In this document: positions 52,001-57,233 of the stretch, in pieces
Position numbering within the stretch: position 1 is the first letter of the stretch
How the letters are laid out: the number at the start of each line of letters is the position of its first letter
NCBI GenBank assembly: GCA_964020155.1
Contig: OZ026551.1
Location: 2,906,018-2,970,017, forward strand
Direction of reading: 5' to 3'
Length of the DNA stretch: 64,000 nt
Origin: Chondrilla cf. caribensis
Lineage: Eukaryota; Porifera; Demospongiae; Chondrillida; Chondrillidae
Made by a program: the position numbers and the translations under genes
Notes under the pieces: generated by a model
Told to the model about the DNA's origin: nothing
The model's database searches: none
What the model saw: the letters and a program-made list of their open reading frames with translations, nothing else

Positions 52001-55000
52001 TGTAGATGCCCTTCTGGCTATGATGGGAGAAATTGAAAAATGCCAGGCCGGTAAAGAGAAGACACCTATTGTCATGTGCAAGTAAGATTTTGTGTAACTG
52101 TACGGTAAATGCAGGAATAACTGCCAAGTCTGTAGACAATTTTTAGAAAGACGGGTTCCTATCTGATAAACAATAATTGGAAAAAGGAACAGTATGAAGT
52201 GTTGGCAAATCTGCCTCCAACCACAATAAGGTCATAGGTCCTTGTAAGTAGTCCTGGCGATGACCTTCTTGGTAGTAGTTAGCTAAGTTTAATAGACCCA
52301 TATCTATTTATCGACCCGATATAACTAAATATGTCAATATTCTCTTGCTCGGATCTTCAACTATATTACTTACTCACACATTTCTACACCTCTCTATAGA
52401 CGTAGCAATGACTTCACATGGTTAAGATCTGAATATACAATAGTAGAATGTAGTTATAATTAATTTTATCACTACTGTAACATACTTGGAAATGCTGAAT
52501 CTTTAACATGGAATATATCTAATATGGCAATAAAATTTTGTGTGCAATAACTTCTGAGATACTGATCAAACATACACAATAAAGTATCATTATCCTCAAA
52601 ATAGCTACATATATATGTCATTCAGTACAGGCGGATTTGGTTCTTGCAAACACCTACTAAGCCTTGCCTAAAACGTTAGACAATTGTAGAGTGTCACTGG
52701 GGAGTGTCGTATGGGTAAACAGAGAACTATTTACTGTGATTGAGAAGAGAACTCATTGATCTCCTCCATCACTAGAATGACAGCATGCTTTCTCAAATTT
52801 ATGGACAAGGCACTCTATATTAGACTCAGCCTTTCTTGATGCATAAAAGGCTTGATATCCAAGATACGCATGTTGCTCGAATTGCCAATTTCTTTCAACA
52901 GTTACAATTGATGCATCTCTTTCCACTTGTACTACATGTTAAATTTATTACCTTTGTTGCTGAGAATACTGAGTGTATATGCTTTCAGAAATCCATCCCT
53001 TTTACTCATATTCACACAATTACAGCATCATTACACCCTTTCCCTATAGGGAGGTTGATTTAGCAAGTCATAAATGACTATTTGTATATAATATAATATA
53101 TATTATAATATATATAATATATATATAATATATAATATATATTTTCGCACCTGCGCGAGTGGGTAAGACGAAATCGCCGGCAGTTTTCCATCATTAGAAG
53201 CCTTCTTCGTGGCCGTGAAACCCTACTACTGCGGTGTGGTGATGTCGAGAGGAACCCTGGGCCAGCAGCTCCTGTCGAGAAGAAGCAGAAGATGGATTTT
53301 CTGACTGTGATCCACGTGAACGCCCGCAGTCTTCTCAGACACCTTGACGATGTTGCCGCTCTCGTTGCTGCGGAACGTCCTCACATTCTGGCCCTGTCCG
53401 AAACCTGGTTGGATGCATCAGTTACTAATGGAGAGATTCATATTCCTGGCTACAACCTGTTCAGGTTTGACCGAAATCGCTGCGGTGGTGGAGTTGCTGT
53501 GTTCTGTGTTGACAACCTGCCGTCTTCTTTGCTAAAATGTAGTGTTACTTCTTCTGGTGCTCAGTTCTTGTGGGTCTCTGTTGCTTGTGGTTCCTTTCAT
53601 CAATCTCTTGCTGTTGGTTGTTTCTATCGTCCCCCTAGTGCTCCATCACAGTCCATCAGTGATGTTTGTGATAACATTGAAACGATGATGCTGAGTAGAA
53701 AGTACATGATAGCCTGTGGTGACTTCAACATCAACATGCGTGACCCAAGCACTAGACACTCCAAGACTTTCCAGAACTTCATCACTTCACATTCCCTCAT
53801 TCAACCAATCTCTGTTCCAACTCATTACTCCTCTTCTTCGGCTTCCATCCTTGATCTCTTCCTTACCACTCCTGACATTCCTGTTGTCCAGTCTTCTGTT
53901 CTTGATGCTGCCTTCTCGGATCATCTCCCCATCTTGCTACGGATAAACTCATCTATCACCCGTCCTCAACCCACCCTCATCACTCACCGCTCATTCAAAC
54001 ACTTCTCCAAGGCCAGTTTTGAGGAAGACCTTAGTGCTGCCCCCTGGTGTGTAATGGATGTCTTCGAGGATCCCGATGACAAGGCAGAGGTGTTCAACCT
54101 CCTCTTCTTGGACATCCTCGATCAGCATGCCCCGGCTAGTACAGTTAGAGTCAAAAAGAAGCCATCACCTTGGATCACTAAAGCGATATGCAAAGAAATG
54201 GACAGAAGGGACAGGCTCTTCCGGTTTTACCGCCGCAACCCCACTTGTGGTACCTGGGACATCTACAAGGCACAACGAAACCGTGTGGTCTGGCTCCAGC
54301 GCAAGGCCAAGTTTGATTATTTCCATCGTCTGCTGCTCAAGAAGCCACATCCATCAGCCATTTGGCGAACACTCAAGCTGGCTACCTCTGCTACACTGTG
54401 TAGAGATAACTGGTCTTCTGTTGCTTCCAATCTAAACTCCTTTGCTGACAATCTTAACAGACACTTTGCTTCAGTTAGTTCCAACAATATGACTACTGCT
54501 CCTCTCACACCTGCTTCTTCTTCTGATTCTACTTCTCCCTCACTTATTGATAACTCTGCTCCCGTACCCACCCTTTCACTCTCTCTCACTACTCCTGAAT
54601 GGTGTGAAGAAGCTCTTTCATCACTAAAACCTAGGTGTGCTACAGGCCTTGATCGTATACCATCATCTGCACTCATTAATGGACGTTCAGTCATCTGCTA
54701 CCCACTATCATCCATCATCAACTCATCTATCACCTCCTCACGCTTTCCCTGCCAATGGAAATGTGCCTCCATCCGACCACTCCACAAAGGTGGTGACCAT
54801 ACAAACCCATCCAACTTTAGGCCCATCTCCGTTTTACCTGTCCCAAGCAAAGTTTTGGAAAGACATGTCCATCTTCAGCTGTCTTCTCATCTTAACTCCA
54901 ACAACCTTCTCTTTCCTCTCCAGTCCGGTTTTCGTCCCTCCCACTCTACACAAACTCTTCTTCTTCACTGCTTAGACTTGTGGTACAAGGCCCTTGATAA

Positions 55001-57233
55001 CAAGAAATTTGTAGGAGTCGTCTTCCTTGACATCACCAAGGCCTTCGACACTGTCAACCATGAACTTCTGTTATCCAAACTATCCAACCTCGGCCTTTCT
55101 GCTTCAGCTGTCTCCTGGTTTCAATCATATTTTTCCAATCGTTCCCATATCACTCATGTTGCCGACTCTTATTCTTCTCCCGGCTTCCCTTCCTCCGGTG
55201 TTCCTCAAGGCTCTGTACTTGGTCCCACCCTCTTCTCTGTCTTAATCAATGATCTTCCTTCAATCCTTCCTCCAGACTCTACAGTTCTGTTTGCTGATGA
55301 TACCACCATCTACATTGTCAGTGACAGTGTTTCCTCCATCCAGTCATCACTTCAGCTCTGTCTAGACCTTGCTAATCTGTGGCTCAAAAGAAATGGTCTG
55401 AAAATAAATGTGGGCAAAACAAAGTCGATGCTGATTCATTCCAGAAAGAAGATTGTGGATGGTGATTTAACACTGAAAATTGATGATAGAACCATTGATT
55501 GTGTTCAGAGCTTCAAATTTCTTGGAGTTATTATCAACGACACCCTCACTTGGGTGGATCACATTAACATGGTGTGTGTCTCCCGTAGTCTGAACTTGCT
55601 TCGTCGGCTCTCTTGGTTTCTGCCTCGCCCCCTCCTACTTCTTTTTCTCAAGTCCTATATACTTCCGCACTTTGACTATTGTGATGTTGTTTGGTTTGGA
55701 TGCACCAAACAAGAAGCACACCATTTGGAAACCCTCCTCAACTTCTCTTGCCGTACAGTTCTACGCAGGCACTACGACTATTCTGCCACTGCTGCCCGTA
55801 GAGAACTGGGTCTGTCCACTCTAACAACACGGAGGAAACTTCACACTGCCCAAATGGTATTTAAGTGCCTGACTTCAAATTCTCCCCCCTATCTCTCCCA
55901 GCTTTTCTCTTGCCCTCCTTCTCATTACAACACTCGCTCTTCCTCATCTTCTCAACTTAATCTGCCTCCTCTTCGTACTTCTCTGGGTCAAAGGTGTTTC
56001 AGTTTCGTGGGTGCTTCTGTTTGGAGGTCATTACCAGTACATGTCCAAGGAGCCATGGATTTCAAAAATTTTTCAATTCTTTGTAATCAATATTTCTCTT
56101 ATTGAACATCTACGTATGTACTTTTATATTTTGTTCATTGCATGTGCATGTACAAATGTTAATTATATAGTGATTCTTAATTTTTAATTTTTAATTTTTA
56201 ATATCCATTTATTTATTCATTTATTTATTTATTTATTTCAATCTCAATGTTGTGATATTACTTATGCATTTGCTGACTCCATTTATATTTGAAATTTCTG
56301 CAAATTTTATTTATTTATTTTATTTATTTTATCCCATTTTATTTCATATTCATTCTTTTTACTTTGTATACACCTTTTCTTTTCTTTTTCTTTTCTTTGT
56401 GGGTGCCACTTAAATAGCCTATGGCTAACGGTTCCCCACATTAAATAAGAATACCCGATACCCGATATATATGTACGTATGTATAAAATTATCACCCAAC
56501 AATCTTTGTACAAACTATACTGTAGTACTATATTAGTGTATTGTTACTACAAACCATACAGTAAGCAACCTGAAAGCAAACTTATCATGCATGATTTGTG
56601 TATATTATGATTGTTTCTGTGTATGAAAGCTGGAAGTAGTTCTAGTGTGCCATACATAACCATGGCTCCTTTGGTTACATATGGCACACTAATACTACTT
56701 TCGTACAAAACAATGGAAACAATGTACTAACAAATTCATCACCTCTGTGTACGTAATGCAATAGATTCTTGATAGTTTGGCTGGTATGTACTTACACACA
56801 TACCCATAAGTAATACCTGTTTGTTTTTAGATTTGAAGTATGGCATGTTGCCAGTATATTATCATACTAAGAGATTTTGATAGATATATAACACAAATTT
56901 CATGTGTTTTTATTAATGTACAATATTTTGTGTAGTGATGGCATGGGAAGAACTGGAGTGTTCACCACGGCAATGTCCGAAATAGAAAGAGTCAAACTGG
57001 AGGGAGAAGTTGACATATTCAATGCAGTCAAGTCATCCAGGAATAAGAGACCTCACATGGTCTGCACTGTGGTTAGTACTGAGTAGCCTTCATAGTGTAT
57101 ACATATATTCTGAGAGATGTTAACAGTCATTTATGTCTCCACCTATATACAGGATCAGTACAGATTGTGCTTTGAGCTACTCCAGGCATACCTGGACTCC
57201 TTTGATACTTATGCTAACTTCAAAGCTGTGTGA
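29872..57233 (+). CDS. Gene B: receptor-type protein tyrosine phosphatase with Ig, FN3 repeats and tandem PTP domains (35 exons)
   Basis: Exons: 29872-29917, 30050-30352, 33015-33440, 34276-34560, 34967-35254, 35657-35941, 37697-37981, 38234-38518, 42021-42305, 42704-42988, 43182-43445, 43506-43763, 43924-44190, 44537-44857, 44925-45110, 45331-45423, 46068-46349, 47224-47344, 47929-48044, 48588-48679, 48911-48992, 49091-49164, 49251-49287, 49410-49507, 49670-49798, 49893-50053, 50180-50315, 50399-50548, 50645-50744, 50990-51066, 51377-51511, 51723-51857, 51933-52081, 56936-57071, 57153-57233. Sum 6453 nt, 2150 aa, one open frame. Order: signal, Ig, 14 FN3, membrane, D1 (about 1561-1880), D2 (about 1881-2150). 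It should dephosphorylate phosphotyrosine at the membrane in response to ectodomain contacts. One Ig plus many FN3 plus tandem PTP recalls LAR/R2-type receptors, without implying orthology. Confidence 0.85.
30375..30522. mobile_element. Short SINE-like insertion
   Basis: Gene A lacks this stretch: its intron runs AGTATCAGTAGTAATC directly. In gene B, TGTAGTATCT precedes and TGCAGTATCT ends the insert, a near-perfect target duplication. The interior includes GACAAAGGTAGCAGTCAGCT followed by GCCGAAACATT and AATAAA, resembling short retroposon tails. Family not identified. Confidence 0.5.
30615..31122. mobile_element. MITE with 23-bp perfect terminal inverted repeats
   Basis: TGCAAGCGAAAAGGGCCCTT (30615 onward) is exactly inverted at 31100-31122. 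Gene A lacks it at the corresponding place. AAATGTCT occurs on both sides (about 30595 and 31131), which may be an 8-bp target duplication slightly outside the repeats. No coding sequence; higher GC than its surroundings. Confidence 0.75.
33015..33440 (+). CDS. Gene B exon 3: Ser/Thr/Pro stalk plus first FN3 domain
   Basis: A 426-nt phase 1-1 exon. The linker is Thr/Ser/Pro-rich and five codons longer than in gene A. The FN3 part has LRVSWTAV, TYTVCYST and AYYIWVAAVSS and the same two Cys. It ends ATA|GTAAGT, so the next residue is Ile rather than Val. Confidence 0.8.
33441..34275 (+). other. Gene B intron after first FN3 exon
   Basis: An 835-bp intron with an AT dinucleotide run at 33985-34008; otherwise no feature seen. 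Confidence 0.5.
34276..42988 (+). CDS. Gene B FN3 array: seven tandem single-exon units (exons 4-10)
   Basis: Exons 34276-34560, 34967-35254, 35657-35941, 37697-37981, 38234-38518, 42021-42305 and 42704-42988: six of 285 nt and one of 288, all phase 1-1. Each is an FN3 with SGRPALTVTWTAPQSD, KYQVQYRRSGTTSW and YQVQVRAVSDVG. Nearly all differences between units are single residues; the second (34967) is the most diverged. The flanking intron segments are also repeated, so whole exon-plus-intron units duplicated recently. Gene A has no such exon, but the decayed gene at 20521 has two. Confidence 0.8.
36257..37598. mobile_element. Two tandem Helitron-like non-autonomous elements
   Basis: Copy one (36257 to about 36900) and copy two (36903-37598) start TCGCCC; copy two ends CTAG. 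The end of each carries a foldback around CGTGTAGTAACTA. The host has A before TC and T after CTAG, and the intron at 35552-35570 gives the matching empty site TTTATGTATG with no target duplication, as Helitrons leave. Short minus-strand frames inside look like decayed captured sequence. No Rep/helicase. Confidence 0.5.
39185..41850 (-). mobile_element. Decayed pogo/Tigger-like DNA transposon
   Basis: The ends CCGTATACGTTCCAATTTTT and (reverse complement of the right end) CGGTATTTGTTCTAATTTTT form imperfect inverted repeats, flanked by TA at 39183-39184 and 41851-41852. The transposase lies on the minus strand and is broken. The same ends occur in the MITE at 6140-6723. Confidence 0.75.
40011..41690 (-). 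pseudogene. pogo-like transposase, frameshifted
   Basis: Minus-strand fragments in three frames. 41314-40991 has a psq-type helix-turn-helix (IARKLEVVKYVKNYSETEAA, PRTTLREWK). 41082-40714 has a CENP-B-type DNA-binding segment and the first catalytic Asp in IINMDETPV. 40573-40262 has VLFVFDTFSGHLK and TKIQPLDVSLNHLLK with the second and third Asp. 40274-40011 is an acidic Asp/Ser-rich tail. Upstream, to about 41690, an N-terminal stretch starting MDEEVLRSPCLPESP hits a stop. Domain order fits pogo/Tigger transposases; at least two frameshifts rule out an active protein. Confidence 0.75.
43182..45423 (+). CDS. Gene B C-terminal FN3 block, exons 11-16
   Basis: Exons 43182-43445, 43506-43763, 43924-44190, 44537-44857, 44925-45110 and 45331-45423 match gene A exons 10-15 in length, phase and most residues. 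FN3 marks: LNITWNRP, LTVRWDEE, IRVTWTPPP, PLQWSLPP, VIMWSEPEEP. Small differences include Asp for Gly in ILSDLHPFDEY. The 60-bp intron 43446-43505 is as short as its gene A partner. Confidence 0.85.
45424..46067 (+). other. Gene B intron before the last FN3 exon, ending in a CA/CG repeat
   Basis: A 644-bp intron. At 45996-46066 an imperfect CA tract with a CGCGCGCGCGTGCGCACG core runs directly into the acceptor CACACAG. The MITEs of the gene A intron are absent. Confidence 0.6.
46068..46349 (+). CDS. Gene B exon 17: membrane-proximal FN3 domain
   Basis: 282 nt, phase 1-1, nearly identical to gene A 17464-17745: VHVSWTPL, YVVTYWPS, YSITVDVYTGNG. The donor is GTGCGT instead of GTGAGT, a weaker consensus. 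Confidence 0.75.
46350..47223 (+). other. Gene B intron before the membrane exon
   Basis: An 874-bp intron with no recognisable element or exon. The plus-strand frame simply continues past the donor to a stop at 46486. Confidence 0.45.
47224..48044 (+). CDS. Gene B exons 18-19: transmembrane and juxtamembrane
   Basis: Exon 47224-47344 reads DIHSVDPPVNTSATVGAIV followed by a run of about 25 hydrophobic residues and the stop-transfer YKR. Exon 47929-48044 encodes a basic, Lys-rich juxtamembrane segment (KKKYSESFKPSKTE, PVKNEDSIR). The intron between them (47345-47928) holds nothing recognised. If the GTGATC donor at 48045 is not used, the frame runs on to TGA 48155-48157, adding a Tyr-rich tail with YVGVYYNSAYYKV; an alternative short-tailed product is possible. 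Confidence 0.7.
48588..50548 (+). CDS. Gene B PTP domain D1, exons 20-28 (catalytic)
   Basis: Nine exons encode residues about 1561-1880. In order: the D1 lead-in with PIPKDNFSEHVSALHAEADE, GFEEEYD; KNRYLNIYT then YNHSRVTL (phosphotyrosine-loop region); DYINASYID; KADFIQMIWDHKSPVIVMLT; KCEQYW; the acid loop WPDHGVP (Asp 1752); and the signature VHCSAGVGRTGTF with Cys 1784 and Arg 1790, split by the intron after 50053. QNQDQYSFIHDAI follows as the Q-loop region. All residues needed for catalysis are present, so D1 should be active. The exon 26 to 27 intron divides the signature after VHC. Confidence 0.9.
50645..57233 (+). CDS. Gene B PTP domain D2, exons 29-35 (degenerate)
   Basis: Seven exons encode residues 1881-2150. 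The fold marks are present: NRFEDKYP, DYYNASFVD, DLWELVWSFKTPTIVLL, FHFKEWPMDGGPP, IVMC and DGMGRTGVF. The signature keeps Cys 2078 and Arg 2084 in a C-x5-R loop (CNDGMGR), but His before Cys is Met, and the WPD loop reads WPMDG, so the general acid is displaced; the KNRY Tyr is lost. This fits a regulatory, weakly active or inactive D2. The intron inside the signature (52082-56935) carries a LINE. The last exon ends FKAV and TGA at 57231-57233. Confidence 0.85.
52082..53135 (+). other. Gene B intron 33, part before the LINE
   Basis: No exon. Reading through the donor gives TGC AAG TAA, an immediate stop. The stretch 52140-53090 is closely matched by 61820-62690 in the downstream copy. It ends in an AT dinucleotide run (53085-53141) into which the LINE inserted. 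Confidence 0.5.
53136..56105 (+). CDS. LINE endonuclease/reverse transcriptase, with 2A-like peptide in frame upstream
   Basis: From the ATG at 53292 there are 937 codons. The N-terminal endonuclease has HVNARSLL, ALSETWLD, GDFNIN (about residue 143) and SDHLPIL (about 208). The reverse transcriptase starts near residue 495 with NPSNFRPISVL, then LDITKAFDTVNH, GVPQGSVLGP and the catalytic LFADDTTIY (Asp about 669-670). The C-terminal part has LKSYILPHFDYCDVVW and LNFSCRTVLRR, typical of CR1/L2-like LINEs. The frame is also open upstream to 53136 without an ATG; codons 53238-53264 read GDVERNPGP, a 2A ribosome-skipping consensus. The element may therefore be 5'-truncated or use an unusual start. 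No disabling mutation is visible in the ORF. Confidence 0.85.
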   Translation, partial: YIFSHLREWVRRNRRQFSIIRSLLRGRETLLLRCGDVERNPGPAAPVEKKQKMDFLTVIHVNARSLLRHLDDVAALVAAERPHILALSETWLDASVTNGEIHIPGYNLFRFDRNRCGGGVAVFCVDNLPSSLLKCSVTSSGAQFLWVSVACGSFHQSLAVGCFYRPPSAPSQSISDVCDNIETMMLSRKYMIACGDFNINMRDPSTRHSKTFQNFITSHSLIQPISVPTHYSSSSASILDLFLTTPDIPVVQSSVLDAAFSDHLPILLRINSSITRPQPTLITHRSFKHFSKASFEEDLSAAPWCVMDVFEDPDDKAEVFNLLFLDILDQHAPASTVRVKKKPSPWITKAICKEMDRRDRLFRFYRRNPTCGTWDIYKAQRNRVVWLQRKAKFDYFHRLLLKKPHPSAIWRTLKLATSATLCRDNWSSVASNLNSFADNLNRHFASVSSNNMTTAPLTPASSSDSTSPSLIDNSAPVPTLSLSLTTPEWCEEALSSLKPRCATGLDRIPSSALINGRSVICYPLSSIINSSITSSRFPCQWKCASIRPLHKGGDHTNPSNFRPISVLPVPSKVLERHVHLQLSSHLNSNNLLFPLQSGFRPSHSTQTLLLHCLDLWYKALDNKKFVGVVFLDITKAFDTVNHELLLSKLSNLGLSASAVSWFQSYFSNRSHITHVADSYSSPGFPSSGVPQGSVLGPTLFSVLINDLPSILPPDSTVLFADDTTIYIVSDSVSSIQSSLQLCLDLANLWLKRNGLKINVGKTKSMLIHSRKKIVDGDLTLKIDDRTIDCVQSFKFLGVIINDTLTWVDHINMVCVSRSLNLLRRLSWFLPRPLLLLFLKSYILPHFDYCDVVWFGCTKQEAHHLETLLNFSCRTVLRRHYDYSATAARRELGLSTLTTRRKLHTAQMVFKCLTSNSPPYLSQLFSCPPSHYNTRSSSSSQLNLPPLRTSLGQRCFSFVGASVWRSLPVHVQGAMDFKNFSILCNQYFSY
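53142..56463 (+). mobile_element. APE-type non-LTR retrotransposon (LINE) with intact ORF
   Basis: Inserted in an AT repeat inside gene B intron 33, sense orientation. The left limit is taken where AT repeat gives way to TTTTCGCACCTGCGCG. The 3' part has TTTAATTTTTAATTTTTAAT, (ATTT)n, a GTGCCACTT/AAATAAGAATACCCG stretch and ends in two ATACCCG repeats. No poly(A) tail. The coding part is GC-richer than the host intron. The downstream duplicate has no LINE at this site, so insertion followed duplication or was lost there. Confidence 0.8.
53238..53264 (+). other. 2A-like translational recoding motif in the LINE
   Basis: The codons GGT GAT GTC GAG AGG AAC CCT GGG CCA are in frame with the LINE ORF, 18 codons upstream of its first Met. 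The preceding residues LLRGRETLLLRC have the Leu-rich, helix-forming character common before 2A motifs. In known 2A sequences ribosomes skip the Gly-Pro bond. 2A-like motifs have been reported in other APE-type LINEs. Confidence 0.75.
56464..56935 (+). other. Gene B intron 33, part after the LINE, with hairpin
   Basis: Sequence after the LINE tail matches 63105-63345 in the downstream copy. It contains the hairpin at 56633-56702. The downstream copy then jumps, lacking what corresponds to 56716-57230. Confidence 0.55.
56633..56702. repeat. Short hairpin conserved in both gene copies (copy 1)
   Basis: AAGTAGTTCTAGTGTGCCAT pairs with ATGGCACACTAATACTACTT; the arms continue through ATACATAACCA/TTGGTTACAT around an 8-nt loop. 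The same hairpin with two or so substitutions is at 63271-63337. It has the size and shape of a pre-miRNA, but this alone does not prove expression. Confidence 0.6.

Follow-up and report, generated by a model that had tools for sequence, protein, structure and literature searches.

2A-bearing LINEs of the APE type, reportedly found by Odon et al. in 2013 in the Rex1, Crack, L2, CR1 and Ingi clades, are said to possess often only one ORF. To our knowledge, neither the nature of the part split off by the 2A of these elements nor the ability of the latter to manage without an ORF1 has been explained. The process itself (2A/StopGo) involves a nascent chain that halts the ribosome at NPG, release of this chain and resumption of translation with proline, as outlined in PMC12846837. 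2A-like sequences in LINEs are cited as known in PMC4981915 and PMC12846837, the former describing 26-aa signal-like 2As on sea-urchin NLRs, the relation of which to the 2As of LINEs is left without speculation in that paper. A precedent for SRP-bound translation of retrotransposon RNA is Ty1 (abstract of PMC3945221).

The LINE studied here resides in the window, i.e., the whole stretch of 64,000 nucleotides that was analysed, and agrees with known 2A-LINEs in carrying a D(V/I)ExNPGP motif near the N-terminus of an endonuclease-RT protein. Set against these known 2A-LINEs, its family may differ in that a signal-like leader precedes the 2A, starting from the very 5' end of the element. We read the window element as a 5'-truncated, intronic copy of a LINE whose signal-like leader would be cut off by 2A skipping, and assign a probability of about 0.7 to this model as a whole, within which we infer skipping, SRP targeting and purpose. 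With regard to the open-licence literature searched, the coupling of signal and 2A is what is new; LINEs with 2As and sea-urchin NLRs with signal-like 2As have been described before. With a signal-like leader as the part to be split off, the purpose of the 2A becomes testable, the options being ER-directed translation of the element's RNA, dual targeting or secretion of a peptide.

The first-pass annotation had proposed a 2A-type motif that precedes an APE endonuclease-RT in the same frame, a Leu-rich stretch before the motif and membership of the element in the 2A-carrying APE-type LINEs; all three proposals were borne out (Table 1). The motif GDVERNPGP, with DVERNPGP (53241-53264) matching the D(V/I)ExNPGP core, directly follows TLLLRC and belongs to the frame of an ORF which extends over 989 aa from stop to stop and over 937 codons from its first Met at 53292. 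Exo_endo_phos (ORF residues 64-263) and RVT_1 (ORF residues 553-800) were both detected by Pfam in this one ORF, as is characteristic of APE-type LINEs, and the best PDB match by sequence for the reverse transcriptase is the LINE-1 ORF2 protein. The window element is filed as a 2A-bearing one-ORF APE-type LINE. Similar to the L-rich classes of viral 2A/StopGo sequences in PMC12846837, it displays the core octapeptide, a hexapeptide (LLLRCG) ending in (A/S/C)G before D, and D at position 12; it differs from them by R at the variable position, where the classes of that source prefer S, and by not belonging to a virus.

Table 1. Features of the LINE copy and its surroundings in the window, and further loci of the same layout
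Feature	Position or loci	Strand	Basis
Intron of protein tyrosine phosphatase-type gene, LINE inside in sense orientation	52082..56935	+	splice sites by eye
AT-rich sequence, 5' junction of truncated insertion	53060..53140	.	no credible L039 homology
LINE open frame, 989 aa	53136..56105	+	ORF list
N-terminal leader remnant FSHLREWVRRNRRQFSIIRSLLRGRETLLLRC	53141..53237	+	comparison with L039 and P0001
2A/StopGo motif GDVERNPGP	53238..53264	+	genome-wide motif counts, 42 versus 0 in controls
Apurinic-type endonuclease domain	53325..53924	+	PF03372, E 2.6e-13
Reverse transcriptase domain	54792..55535	+	PF00078, E 3e-35
3' UTR, terminal part common to L039, short tail (ATACCCG twice)	56106..56466	+	comparison with L039
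NLR-type signal-2A loci on C23	L055, L056, L059, L063-L067		

Alignment with the full-length paralogue L039 (69 % identity over the piece searched) reveals homology to begin at ~53141, and the AT-rich sequence upstream of this position has no credible counterpart in L039. The leaders of L039 and of P0001, which among the database proteins is closest to the window element (86 % identity, 84 % query coverage), comprise 98 aa each and end in the 2A. Compared to both, the window copy lacks the start codon, the hydrophobic core and ~56 leader codons, retaining approximately the last 41 leader residues, 2A included; from 53136 up to 53292, the ORF frame is devoid of ATG. In the window copy, the 5' truncation falls inside the leader. 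With its 5' part gone and no ATG left before the 2A, this copy will hardly be able to express the motif from an initiation site of its own. The observation in the first-pass annotation of an upstream frame without ATG stands, while the missing ORF1, posed there as an open question, gives way to 5' truncation in a class that has no ORF1. The interpretation given there is thus supported in part; it did not include the signal-like nature of the leader or the recurrence of the layout on a Helitron and on NLR-type genes. The tail of the copy consists of two repeat units only, and a target-site duplication is not readable in the AT-rich flank. Assignment of the host gene is based on PF00102 matches to two exon stretches downstream of the LINE, and on an upstream exon called by eye only.

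Full-length relatives possess one ORF, encoding a leader that ends in the 2A, a PHD finger in some families, the endonuclease and the RT. When 12 copy pairs representing six families of LINEs were compared in the region preceding the ATG, identity dropped to chance within ~2-20 nt (weakest case L041-L042, with only 2 nt identical), which places the start codon ~2-20 nt from the 5' end of the element. Because the copies stop matching at this short distance, the leader represents the first item on the element and no ORF1 exists; an ORF1 missing upstream of the 2A is ruled out by copy matching that ends within ~20 nt of the ATG. The genome search for copies with complete 5' ends, as recommended in the first-pass annotation, thus located the starts with the 2A in frame. 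Among 24 distinct rows (including NLR-type L055 and L056 as well as Helitron L006 and L007), 18 begin with ATGGC (17 of these with ATGGCG), three with another ATG (L003, L023, L055) and three have no ATG ahead of the 2A (window, L002, L054), the script for finding starts being biased to ATGGC by favouring an in-frame ATG followed by GC. The start context is mostly A-rich, followed by ATGGCGGC; L068 has CAAGATGGCGGC. We take this A-rich ATGGCG context to resemble the YY1/TISU element that occurs where 5' UTRs are very short, and a 5' end of this type could provide promoter and start site in one. YY1/TISU-like 5' ends were noted in L022, L026-L030, L039, L040, L045-L047 and L068; no paper combining TISU, YY1 and retrotransposon was found in the open-licence literature.

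Leaders with an MA start and at least 85 aa were regarded as full (n = 20; 11 genome loci and 9 of 116 database proteins), 19 being LINE-type and one from a Helitron (L052). L045 and L046 are near-copies, L049 and L051 have a common leader type, and P0062 is a partial element with PHD finger. Owing to other predicted starts or insufficient length, P0002, P0008-P0011, P0015, P0020, P0021, P0024, P0059, P0085, P0092 and P0093 were left out; core scoring also excluded L054, L057 and the window. The full leaders are 88-138 aa long, and each of the 20 contains within its first 40 residues a 13-residue stretch with a mean hydropathy of at least 1.88. This core ends near residue 15-28 and is followed by a part in which K+R exceeds D+E (20/20). 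Scored by hydropathy only, with a cut-off of 1.8 set post hoc after inspection of the 2A set and with the N-termini of all database proteins being predicted, none of 18 LINE relatives without 2A reached this value; as background, 2 of 42 sequence windows of P0001 did so. Within-sequence shuffling yielded p < 0.05 for 16 of the 20 leaders, the four not clearly above their own shuffles being L049 (p 0.053), P0013 (0.07), L026 (0.17) and P0006 (0.19). Judged by hydropathy, the N-terminal hydrophobic core typical of a secretory signal is thus present in 20/20 full leaders of relatives and lost in the window copy. On the level of such predicted features, the comparison shows signal-like core and 2A to occur together in the LINE relatives.

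The leader could also be a mere handle of the 2A, in that an L-rich chain stalls the ribosome, the hydrophobic peptide is degraded and the 2A sets the level of endonuclease-RT. Such a role, which we regard as unlikely, would agree with the fast divergence of the leader bodies: once the last 14 aa are removed, profile comparison of the leader families, in 36 pairings, reveals a clear relation only for A with BC (probability 89 %) and D with F (86 %), the other 34 attaining about 11 % or less. It would also agree with reduced synthesis downstream of 2A-type sequences, discussed in PMC4981915 and PMC5009743. However, a handle would hardly account for a core at the N-terminus, far from the 2A, in all 20 otherwise differing leaders and in none of the 18 relatives devoid of 2A. 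Moreover, the cut-off is reached by just two of 60 long proteins that lack NPGP, namely P0031, having a degenerate 2A (GDVHPCPGP), and P0089, having none. P0031 is itself a related LINE with a hydrophobic N-terminus, in which the 2A is perhaps lost or a variant.

In case of the preferred reading, a leader cut off by skipping, the ribosome would initiate within ~20 nt of the 5' end, mostly at ATGGCG, and first make a leader of ~90-120 aa in the order signal-peptide-like core, net basic stretch and L-rich 2A. The distance from core to NPG amounts to 63-113 residues in the 20 full leaders, and the ribosome exit tunnel holds roughly 30-40 residues; since the former exceeds the latter, the core should be clear of the ribosome and open to SRP before the skip. 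At the junction of NPG and P the peptide bond would then be skipped, releasing the leader and leaving the endonuclease-RT as a separate protein starting with Pro. The leader may bring the translating LINE RNA and its ribosome to the ER surface, or may itself be secreted, and the 2A would spare the enzyme from fusion to an ER signal, such that it stays free. As proposed for the present case, the likeness to Ty1 would lie in a nascent chain that guides the mRNA of a retrotransposon to the ER; Ty1 differs in being an LTR element whose Gag itself enters the ER, and the abstract of PMC3945221 contains no 2A. A risk for the model is that the protein after the 2A may not be kept out of the ER once the ribosome has docked.

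A further possibility, to which we give little credence, is dual targeting as proposed for the sea-urchin NLR 2As, with an unskipped share carrying endonuclease-RT into the secretory path. Reporter fusions of SpNLR2A6 do behave in this way according to PMC4981915, but a secreted endonuclease-RT would be of no evident use to a LINE and the geometry differs. SpNLR2A, as described in that paper, comprises 26 aa with the 2A itself serving as signal, whereas the leaders studied here, not being of this short type, measure 88-138 aa, have a separate core 63-113 residues from NPG and occur also on LINEs and a Helitron.

Conservation of the motif was followed by a genome-wide census and an RT phylogeny. 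D(V/I)ExNPGP was translated back into two degenerate DNA patterns, which, applied as exact matches to the 137 Mb genome, yielded 28 (GAYGTNGARNNNAAYCCNGGNCC) and 14 (GAYATHGARNNNAAYCCNGGNCC) sites, and the reversed patterns used as controls yielded none each in the same genome; given 42 sites versus 0, the motif is not due to chance. Pairing of coordinates by eye located 25 of the 42 sites inside, or at most ~0.5 kb upstream of, a LINE endonuclease match, and the other 17 comprise seven NLR-type exons on C23, five sites with the Helitron codon variant, one remnant (L057) and four further sites. Full leader, 2A and PHD are found in L070, 2A and PHD with a shortened leader in L071, and full leader and 2A followed by a broken frame in L068; L069 is a remnant.

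The RT tree was built from 52 of 96 rows (26 with 2A, 18 without, 8 in neither group). Left out were 44 rows with non-assessable N-terminus, including the close relatives P0004, P0007, P0017 and P0018, the latter two having predicted starts downstream of the expected place of the 2A. In this phylogeny, a check also named in the first-pass annotation, the window element falls into a clade of 27 with a support of 99, in which the 2A is present in 24/24 assessable rows, several of them near-copies. L060, L061 and L062, the N-termini of which are not assessable, are positioned inside this clade; P0059 (NIEFNPGP) and P0093, both with 2A-type motifs, branch outside on long branches. Instead of being out of frame or not conserved in full-length relatives, as would have spoken against the first-pass annotation, the 2A is kept in frame between two coding parts in all 24 assessable clade rows, the upstream part being truncated in the window. 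A chance or decayed motif without function, hardly credible in view of 42 motifs versus 0 in controls and the preserved frame in the clade, is excluded in practice at the family level, and applies to the window copy in the sense that it has no start for its leader and can hardly be expressed with it.

Codon changes, as point estimates of dN/dS from Nei-Gojobori counts with synonymous sites near saturation in L043-L044 and L039-L041, appear mostly consistent with constraint. Between window and L039, dN/dS is 0.31 in the leader (23 codons), 0.37 in the 2A stretch (19 codons) and 0.22 in the next 250 codons; for L049-L051 the values are 0.45, 0.06 and 0.17 for leader, 2A and following part, respectively. 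No constraint was seen in the leaders of two young pairs, i.e., L045-L046 (dN/dS 1.3; 4 nonsynonymous and 1 synonymous changes) and L052-L058 (6 nonsynonymous, 0 synonymous).

L049/L050 and L051 belong to different subgroups of the RT tree. At third codon positions, L049 and L050 are 76-82 % identical to L051 through residue 150 (leader, 2A, PHD), 64 % in residues 151-200 and 24-50 % over the rest including endonuclease and RT; no such step in identity occurs in the closer pair L045-L046 used for comparison. On a plain reading, it looks as if two LINE families had exchanged their 5' module of leader, 2A and PHD. Alternatively, L049/L050 and L051 could have remained similar in the 5' part because its RNA is under strong constraint. 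In P0013, a leader-2A-PHD part is joined to the RT of window kin, which themselves are without PHD; in this protein, either the module was swapped or the contig is chimaeric.

The same layout is encountered in a Helitron. Two loci, L052 (C3:2888952-2895952) and L058 (C3:3210192-3217192), of the five genome sites with the Helitron codon variant were read, and both encode a signal-like leader, GDVELNPGP and a PHD finger in what appears to be the first exon, followed by a frame of more than 1500 aa. In L052, the sole copy scanned, the PHD finger (E 4.9e-9) precedes Helitron_like_N (E 2.4e-28) and PIF1 helicase (E 2.3e-29) matches in the long frame, and GTAAGT...AAACAG between the two frames, as read from the sequence, marks a candidate intron. 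L070 and L071 look alike as far as the PHD. The Helitron finger starts within ~2 residues of its position in the PHD-bearing 2A-LINEs, with which it is 31-35 % identical. The finger is nevertheless weak evidence for a relationship of the Helitron with 2A-LINEs, since among the compared proteins, apart from the second copy of the Helitron, it is best matched by P0066, a LINE protein without 2A. The open-licence literature searched contained no paper joining 'Helitron' with '2A-like'.

A third context is provided by C23, where GDVEINPGP occurs in seven NLR-type first exons between 155 kb and 779 kb (Table 1). Six of the seven exons have an uninterrupted frame across signal-like start, basic stretch and 2A, and a stop removes the start in L063. 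In L059, the only locus read further, the strand of the exon also encodes a NACHT domain (E 1.9e-19), located ~3 kb downstream; splicing of the signal-2A exon to the NACHT exon is assumed. A database search with the leader alone as query retrieved 11 proteins, ten with D(V/I)ExNPGP and one (P0244) with a changed residue; at least one of the 11 overlaps with the genome exons, P0237 being identical to one of the seven. For L055-L056, dN/dS amounts to 0.35 in the leader and 0.08 in the 2A stretch. Origin of the NLR-type leader from a LINE leader is unsupported, as the profile without the last 14 aa matches no LINE family (best 1.7 %). As far as can be judged from sequence, NLR-type and LINE leaders are alike only in their 2A end and layout. 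SpNLR2A, as described in PMC4981915, resembles the C23 genes in being N-terminal, signal-like, ending in the 2A and residing on NACHT proteins. In the open-licence literature searched, only PMC4981915 combines 2A-like, NOD-like receptor and NACHT, and the text of the sponge NLR paper PMC12909245 mentions neither NPGP nor skipping.

Recurrence of the layout on a Helitron and on NLR-type genes suggests a device that is either shared or has evolved repeatedly. It is also relevant to how the 2As of LINEs and NLRs are related, a matter left aside in PMC4981915. One may tentatively speculate, though we consider it somewhat doubtful, that a portable leader of signal plus 2A is distributed among three unrelated kinds of genes in this genome, i.e., the LINE clade, the Helitron and the NLR-type cluster, that ER-directed translation with release by 2A is a general strategy, and that the leader, together with the PHD finger in LINEs and Helitron, moved between elements, as seems to have happened between two LINE families, and perhaps into host genes. 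If true, a cytosolic or nuclear protein would each time be made behind an ER-type signal that is removed by skipping.

Two LINE endonuclease matches reside in particularly long open frames, namely C7:3869409-3869726 (L062; 2449 aa) and C2:1020215-1020826 (2287 aa). Just upstream of L062, a long frame of other make-up is present on the same strand.
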